Origin: Actinomycetes bacterium
Lineage (GTDB): Bacteria; Actinomycetota; Actinomycetes; S36-B12; GCA-2699445
Reading direction: 5' to 3'
DNA length: 64,000 nt
Assembly (NCBI GenBank): GCA_022599915.1
Contig: JAHZLH010000001.1
Coordinates: forward strand, 1-64,000
Positions 30,015 through 32,663 of the stretch are shown piece after piece (the stretch's first letter is position 1; every line of letters starts with the position of its first letter). The position numbers and the translations under genes are program-made. The notes under the pieces were generated by a model. That model was not told the origin of the DNA, ran no database searches, and was given only the letters and a program-made list of their open reading frames with translations.

Positions 30015-30440
30015 ATGGATCGCCCTGACACCCGCATCGTCCCTGCCGAGTCCCAGCCGGCATCATCCGCTCCCGACCCGCGAACAGCCGCACCGAAGGT
30101 ATTGGGTCGCTGGGGTGAGGACCTGGCTGCCAACTATCTCGCGGGACGCGGTCTGCTGATTTTGGAACGCAACTGGCGATGTTGTGAAGGGGAAATGGAC
30201 CTTATCGCCTGGGAAGCACCCGAAATTGTCATGTGTGAAGTACGCACTCGCCGACGTAGTCGAACTGGCTCAGCCTTGGAGTCCATCACATTGCGCAAGC
30301 AACGGCGACTCCGGCGACTAGCGGCTGTCTGGTTGGCGACTCAGGAGCACAGCGATTTCCTAGTTCGCATCGATGCCCTAGGGATTCAGATCAGCCGGGA
30401 TGGTCGCTGCACCATCGAGCACGTCCGGGGGGTGGCCTGA
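30015..30440 (+). CDS. yraN: YraN family (UPF0102) nuclease-like protein
   Basis: A 141-residue protein with a PD-(D/E)xK-type core: LGRWGEDLAANYLAGRG, GEMDLIA and EVRTRRRSRTG correspond to the conserved E, D and E-x-K-like positions, with Arg replacing the usual Lys. The first 28 residues are Pro/Ala rich and variable. The family is widespread next to rnhB and yifB; a role in DNA processing is suspected but not proven. Its stop overlaps the comM start by one base. Confidence 0.85.
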   Translation: MDRPDTRIVPAESQPASSAPDPRTAAPKVLGRWGEDLAANYLAGRGLLILERNWRCCEGEMDLIAWEAPEIVMCEVRTRRRSRTGSALESITLRKQRRLRRLAAVWLATQEHSDFLVRIDALGIQISRDGRCTIEHVRGVA

Positions 30441-31950
30441 TGCCAGTGCGGATCAGCCATGGGGCGCTCGCTAATGGCGTGATGGGTCAACTTGTTGAAG
30501 TGCAGGCACATCTCAGCAACGGTCTACCGAGCATGACCATCGTGGGACTGCCCGATACTTCAATCAGTGAGGCCCGAGATCGAGTACGGGCGGCAGTGGC
30601 GAGTTGCGGTTTCACCTGGCCCACCGGACGAATCACGGTGGGGCTGTCGCCTGCTTTCGAGCACAAACGCGGTTCCATTCTAGATCTTGCCATCGCCATG
30701 GCAGTGCTGGCCGCCGCCGATACCGTGCCCGCTGCAGCCGTTGCTGACACGATCTTTCTGGGCGAGCTGGGACTGGACGGATCGCTGCGGGCAGTGCCCG
30801 GCGCTATTGCCATGGCATTGGCCATCGTTAAAGGTCGACCTGATTGTCAGATTGTCGCCAGTCCGCAGACTGCAGCGCAGATTTCCGCGGTCCCGGGGTG
30901 GTGTCGTTGCCGGCGATCGATCTGCAGCAGGTGGTACAGATCCTCACCGGAGTGGCCACCGCTCCCGAAGTCAACCCGGCAGCCCCAGCCCCAGCCCCAA
31001 CCCTCACCCCGCCAGATCTGGCGGATGTGATCGGCCAGGGCAGAGCCTGTCGCTCGTTAGAAATCGCTGCAGCGGGTGGTCATCATCTGCTGCTCCACGG
31101 CCCACCCGGCGTAGGTAAGACCATGTTGGCTCGTCGGCTGCCCCGGTTGCTGCCACCCCTGACCAACGGCGAGGCGCTGGAAGTAGCCGCAGTCCGCGAC
31201 GCAGCCGAAGGCGGCTTGCTCAGCCTCGACCATTGCCCGCCATTTCAGGCGCCCCACCACTCAAGCACCCATGTGGCGATGGTGGGTGGTGCCATCGGTG
31301 GCATCCTGCGACCCGGTCAGATCAGTCAGGCTCACCATGGCGTTCTCTTTCTCGATGAAGCGCCAGAGTTTCACCGACAGACGCTGGAGGCACTGCGGCA
31401 ACCGCTGGAATCGGGGAGCGTGAGTATTGCGCGCGCGGCGTTCTGCGAACAATTGCCCGCACGATTCCAACTGATCTTGGCGGCCAACCCTTGCCCTTGT
31501 GGTGATGTGGGAACTGCTACCTGTACCTGCACGGCGGCGGAGGTGCGACGTTACAGCCAGCGATTGTCGGGACCGTTGCTCGATCGCATCGATATGAGGA
31601 TTCGGGTAGGGCCGCCCAGCGGGCAGCAGCCCGGCAATCCGACGGCGCAGGTGCGGGAGCGTGTGCAAGCGGCTCGGCAGCGTTCCGGGCGGCGGTTGCA
31701 GGGCAGTGGCGAGCGCATCAACAGTCGAGTGCCCGGGGAATGGTTACGACGAATGCACCCACCAGACTCAACCGGAGTGGAACTCCTGGAGCGCTGGCGC
31801 AACGAGCAACGTCTCGGGATGCGGGCACTGGACCGGATCTTGCGGCTGTGCTGGACGATCGCTGACCTGGCAGACCTTGATGTCCCCGGGGAAGATGAGA
31901 GCCACGAGGCAGCTGCTATGCGTCAAGGCGCAATGGGTGCCCAGCCATGA
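30440..31950 (+). pseudogene. comM: ComM/YifB Mg-chelatase-like AAA+ ATPase, interrupted by a -1 frameshift
   Basis: Together the two frames encode a full-size (about 503 residues) YifB/ComM protein, a hexameric helicase that helps branch migration during natural transformation. The N-terminal part (30440 to about 30898) has the GLPDTSISEARDRVRAA signature; the C-terminal part, one frame back and open from 30844 to 31950, has Walker A HGPPGVGKT, Walker B LFLDEAPEF and NPCPCG. The join falls at C CCG GGG (30892-30898), where a slip of one base gives AVPGVVSL without loss of a residue. Without a shift the product stops at 31030 and lacks the ATPase. It could be a one-base deletion or sequencing error in a G run, or programmed frameshifting. 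Confidence 0.85.
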
Positions 31951-32663
31951 CTCTTCCCATCCGGTTCGTCACGCCAGGGCCGAACTGGCCGACGCAATTG
32001 GATGACTTGGGGGAGCAACGGCCTGAGCAACTCGTTGTTCGGGGCATGGGGGAGTTGCGACAGTTGCTGGTGCACTCAGTCGCGATCGTAGGGGCGCGTC
32101 GTGCCACTCCTAGCGGGCTTGCCGCCGCTGAGCGATTGGCTGGTGATCTCGCAGCCGCAGGGTGGACGATCGTGTCCGGCGCCGCCCATGGCATCGACAC
32201 TGCCGCCCACCGAGGTGCTGTGCTTGCCGGTGGTGTCACCTGCGGCGTCCTGGCCGGCGGGATCGATCGGCAAGTGTCTGCTGGGCCGGGGCGAACGGCA
32301 GCAAGCATCGCTGCGCACGGCCTGCTCGTCGCGGAGGAGGCAGGTTCCCGACCGCCGCAACGACACAGTTTCCTGCATCGCAATCGTCTTATCGCTGCAC
32401 TCACTCGCGCCACCGTAGTAATCGAGGCTGCCGAGCGATCCGGGGCGTTGAACACTGCCCGCTGGGCAGAATCTCTCGGGCGAATGGTGATGGCCATGCC
32501 CGGCTCGGTGTTGGCAGAGATGAGCCGAGGTACCCACGCAGCGATTCCAGACGGCCGGGCCATTCTGGTGCGCGATACTGCGGACGTCTGGGAGATGCTG
32601 GCGGGGATGGGTGAGTTCCCTGACGAGGAGACATCACGACACTGGACGTGGAGTCGTGGCTGA
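31947..32663 (+). CDS. dprA: DprA/Smf-family protein, short form
   Basis: A 238-residue protein made almost only of the DprA Rossmann fold: VAIVGARRATPSG, TIVSGAAHGIDTAAHRGAV, HRNRLIAALTRATVVIEA and SGALNTARWA. DprA loads RecA on incoming single-stranded DNA. Usual DprA proteins are 290-380 residues, with a helical N-terminal region and C-terminal winged helix; both are missing or very short here. The normally conserved YPxxN segment after the glycine loop is replaced by VSAGPG. It overlaps comM by ATGA. Function may be reduced or specialised. Confidence 0.82.
   Translation: MTLPIRFVTPGPNWPTQLDDLGEQRPEQLVVRGMGELRQLLVHSVAIVGARRATPSGLAAAERLAGDLAAAGWTIVSGAAHGIDTAAHRGAVLAGGVTCGVLAGGIDRQVSAGPGRTAASIAAHGLLVAEEAGSRPPQRHSFLHRNRLIAALTRATVVIEAAERSGALNTARWAESLGRMVMAMPGSVLAEMSRGTHAAIPDGRAILVRDTADVWEMLAGMGEFPDEETSRHWTWSRG

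Follow-up and report, generated by a model that had tools for sequence, protein, structure and literature searches.

YifB/ComM proteins (TIGR00368, NF007365), common DNA-handling helicases, consist of a ChlI domain, a Mg_chelatase AAA+ domain and a Mg_chelatase_C domain, in this order. In Gram-negative bacteria, ComM serves as the branch-migration helicase during natural transformation (PMC11612176). In a related member of the AAA+ superfamily, the magnesium/cobalt chelatase gene chlD, programmed −1 frameshifting occurs between overlapping open reading frames at an A_AAA_AAR site that is under strong purifying selection across genera and is accompanied by a potential structure (PMC3711429, PMC5009743, PMC9227772). 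GeneTack also yields singleton frame-shifted genes, attributed to indels or sequencing errors, in which a conserved protein is encoded on both sides of a one-base shift in a single genome, with no cluster of similar shifted genes (PMC3711429). The yifB gene described here lies in the window, the whole 64,000-nucleotide stretch that was analyzed, and resembles chlD in its superfamily, in the −1 direction of its shift and in its overlapping open reading frames. However, it is another gene, its shift is confined to one genome, its motif is C_CCG_GGG, and no structure accompanies it. It shares the listed traits of the GeneTack singletons and shows no evident difference from them; its break is an ordinary private frame break of a kind already known.

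The yifB reading frame and its neighbors

The source genome is a 2.44-Mb draft of an actinobacterial lineage (75 contigs, 98.65% complete), the nearest named record being the MAG 'Micrococcales bacterium isolate NAT138'. As in relatives, yifB is adjoined by yraN and dprA (Table 1), and the yraN-yifB-dprA gene order is identical in the congener G002. The three domains follow one another as in YifB/ComM, but they are spread over two frames, with ChlI in frame 0 and the AAA+ and C-terminal domains in the −1 frame, which confirms the split put forward in the original prediction. Scored apart against TIGR00368, the two parts reach 122.3 and 289.4 bits, and no uninterrupted protein rises above the curated cut-off of 362.4 bits.

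The frames meet at the zero-frame codons GTC CCG GGG (30890-30898), which contain the predicted heptamer C_CCG_GGG. A one-base backward slip at this point joins the two parts without the loss of a residue (...ISAVPGVVSLPAIDL... versus ...IALVPGIEPIPVVNL... in the congeners), and the protein read across the shift has about 503-504 residues, like YifB/ComM, and aligns end to end with its relatives with 0 residues missing. Translation without a shift ends at a TGA and would give a product lacking the ATPase. Both parts had also been described as otherwise undamaged, and this holds true: 20/20 near-invariant YifB residues are kept in the N-half and 58/58 in the C-half (78/78 overall), with no second lesion. 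The break could fall anywhere within the Val-Pro-Gly codons; the sequence alone does not fix one base.

Table 1. Positions of yifB/comM, its parts and its neighbors in the window, and of yifB loci cut at Walker B in other genomes of the order.
Feature	Position	Strand	Details
UPF0102 (YraN) family, upstream neighbor	30015-30440	+	PF02021, 2.9e-25
yifB/comM, whole	30440-31950	+	flanked by yraN (30015-30440) and dprA (31947-32663)
First open reading frame, 196 aa	30440-31030	+	Pfam ChlI PF13541, 120.7 bits
yifB/comM 5′ part, zero frame: ChlI (Lon-protease-like) N-terminal domain	30440-30898	+	PF13541, 4.1e-35; TIGR00368 positions 6-137 of 499; aligns in frame with 106 relatives
Second open reading frame, 368 aa	30844-31950	+	Mg_chelatase PF01078, 266.6 bits; Mg_chelatase_C PF13335, 73.9 bits; −1 frame open from 30844 on
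CCCGGGG heptamer in Val-Pro-Gly codons, point of frame change	30892-30898	+	
Out-of-frame tail of the zero-frame open reading frame, 43 codons + stop	30899-31030	+	TGA 31028-31030 overlaps −1-frame GTG 31027-31029
yifB/comM 3′ part, −1 frame: AAA+ Mg_chelatase (Walker motifs) + Mg_chelatase_C	30899-31950	+	PF01078, 1.5e-79; PF13335, 1.6e-20; 58/58 near-invariant residues
dprA, downstream neighbor, intact	31947-32663	+	overlaps yifB stop; PF02481, 3.4e-56; 64% identical to and collinear with congener
Walker B-cut yifB and recombinase loci	L258:1012-3472; L262:1504-3580; L264:240-926; L266:919-1893; L265		

Frame state in relatives and origin of the break

Among the relatives covering the junction site (n = 106 distinct sequences, both congeners among them, drawn from the family, from the order and from outside it), 106/106 have one open frame across it. 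This includes G001 and G002/NAT138, which are 61-62% and 62-63% identical, respectively, and are unbroken at the site. Because no relative shares the shift, we take the one-base difference to be, most probably, a mutation of recent date (or an error in the consensus) rather than a designed slip. We also surveyed 85 genomes of the order and found a ChlI domain in 77, in most of which the open frame measures about 470-790 aa, versus 256 aa in the source genome. The source genome is alone among these 77 in having a frame that ends just behind ChlI inside a contig; the other short yifB frames of the order stop at contig ends or are broken further downstream in the ATPase part (Walker B region). 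A TGA inside yifB of G018 was rejected as a frame break, because it is the genuine stop of the gene, where the alignment ends, and the one in G026 sits at an insertion. Viral contigs yielded distant ATPases only.

Our preferred interpretation, to which we give a probability of roughly 0.6, is that the break arose recently, in this genome alone, from a one-base mutation in the C/G run of a yifB/comM that is ordinary in all other respects. Such a change would have broken the frame behind the N-domain recently and in one lineage only, translation in the zero frame would yield a short N-terminal product that ends in a meaningless tail and lacks the ATPase, and the slippery heptamer would be a by-product of spelling the conserved Val-Pro-Gly in a GC-rich genome. 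Since the zero-frame product is short and without ATPase, yifB most likely has lost its function and is inactive or nearly so. The persistence of all 78 near-invariant residues argues for a recent break, or for an error, and against an old pseudogene.

The single lesion and the lack of decay fit equally well with a consensus or assembly error, in which case yifB would be intact in the living population and the base missing from the C/G run would be an artifact of the assembled contig. That the genome is a 75-contig draft and that the site is a C3G4 run also point in this direction. However, the run is short (three C, four G) and no classic error site. Moreover, when the reading frames of G002 were compared with 1.27 Mb of the source genome (about 343 queries found a match, with some 120,000 residues aligned), yifB was the only true frame break that survived inspection. 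Six others flagged automatically (the source genome, G000, versus G002) were inspected and judged spurious, consisting of antisense shadow frames or of read-through into flanks, several with internal stops. Because this survey reveals no second true frame break, the one in yifB is not accounted for by the overall error rate, and we reject the notion of a generally error-ridden assembly. We regard a consensus error as the less probable alternative; the data favor a real mutation, and we infer that the break is present in living cells and not merely in the consensus sequence. Of the three readings offered in the original prediction, recent one-base deletion and read or consensus error are those that remain, the deletion being favored by the data, and programmed frameshifting is not supported.

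Possible slippage or restart at the junction

We consider it highly improbable that YifB is truly made from two frames, whether ribosomes slip at a low level on C_CCG_GGG or restart at GTGA to give a two-polypeptide ComM; taken singly, each route appears more improbable still. Programmed or tolerated −1 ribosomal frameshifting would give a short N-terminal protein together with full-length YifB, as suggested by the correct register of an X_XXY_YYZ motif at the junction, by the exact join and by the full preservation of the downstream half of the gene. Yet the shift is found in none of the 106 single-frame relatives, and the heptamer occurs without a shift both in relatives and elsewhere in the source genome. 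Identical GTC CCG GGG codons specify Val-Pro-Gly in an intact single-frame Aeromicrobium relative (L072), C_CCG_GGA and C_CCG_GGT occupy the same site in the unshifted L008 and L039, and five other in-frame C_CCG_GGG heptamers lie inside unbroken conserved genes of the source genome. The heptamer is the sole zero-frame X_XXY_YYZ in the first open reading frame; across the source genome, in-frame X_XXY_YYZ motifs are met about once per 515-550 codons, C_CCG_GGN being the commonest class. The coincidence of heptamer and break is not independent, because one-base indels favor C/G runs and Val-Pro-Gly is easily spelled in this manner.

Stimulatory elements are likewise missing from the junction: the downstream RNA shows no folding advantage over shuffled sequences (z = 0.18 and −0.21), indicating no structure, and inspection by eye of the 6-17 nt upstream of the heptamer (30875-30886) revealed no Shine-Dalgarno-like motif. 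Nor does C_CCG_GGG belong to the 21 motifs that an E. coli study selected for their tendency to shift (PMC4066793), in which the value measured for C_CCG_GGG itself is given in a figure. With neither conservation nor stimulators, programmed frameshifting is rejected. The finding named beforehand as speaking against it, single-frame yifB in all close relatives with no heptamer, was largely obtained: the frame is intact in all close relatives, and where the heptamer occurs, in relatives or elsewhere in the source genome, no shift accompanies it. As the case of yifB illustrates, a GC-rich heptamer that looks slippery readily arises at a frame break without recoding.

The zero-frame stop and a −1-frame GTG overlap as GTGA (31027-31030), at the very point where the AAA+ domain begins (VIGQGRACRSLEIAAAGG...). 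In a working split gene, ribosomes halting at this TGA would restart at the GTG and produce a separate AAA+ protein cooperating with the N-domain. The position of the overlap, a break placed between domains and the invariant residues kept in both parts are compatible with such an arrangement. However, no good Shine-Dalgarno sequence was seen, no relative is divided like the yifB of the source genome, and a rough calculation of our own puts the chance of meeting such an overlap at about one in three, for which reason we note the restart and do not claim it. Transcriptional slippage, which requires homopolymers longer than three C or four G, is rejected at runs of only these lengths.

Transformation genes and Walker B breaks in the order

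Neither comEC (PF03772) nor comEA was found in the source-genome assembly, which is 98.65% complete; both may lie in an assembly gap. All seven other family members have comEC (in G001 only a fragment of it, at a contig end), and comEA adjoins it in G002. Missing comEC and comEA would fit a loss of transformation and would be a weak pointer that the loss of yifB is real. If the mutation that we favor is real, the lineage may be losing natural transformation, given its broken comM and the failure to find comEA or comEC; this would be a modest piece of natural history. A 222-aa gene located beside comEC in both congeners is found elsewhere in the source genome, between mscL-like and msrB-like genes (L268, L269; L128:782-1450). 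In the half of the source genome that was covered, holA did not turn up.

Three genomes from other families of the order, G026, G028 and G044, have a yifB that is interrupted at the Walker B codons (VLFLDEA / LDEAPEF). In G026 and G028, large serine recombinases with Resolvase, Recombinase and Zn_ribbon domains lie immediately next to the interruption, an arrangement suggesting that serine-integrase elements use the yifB Walker B codons as an attachment site.
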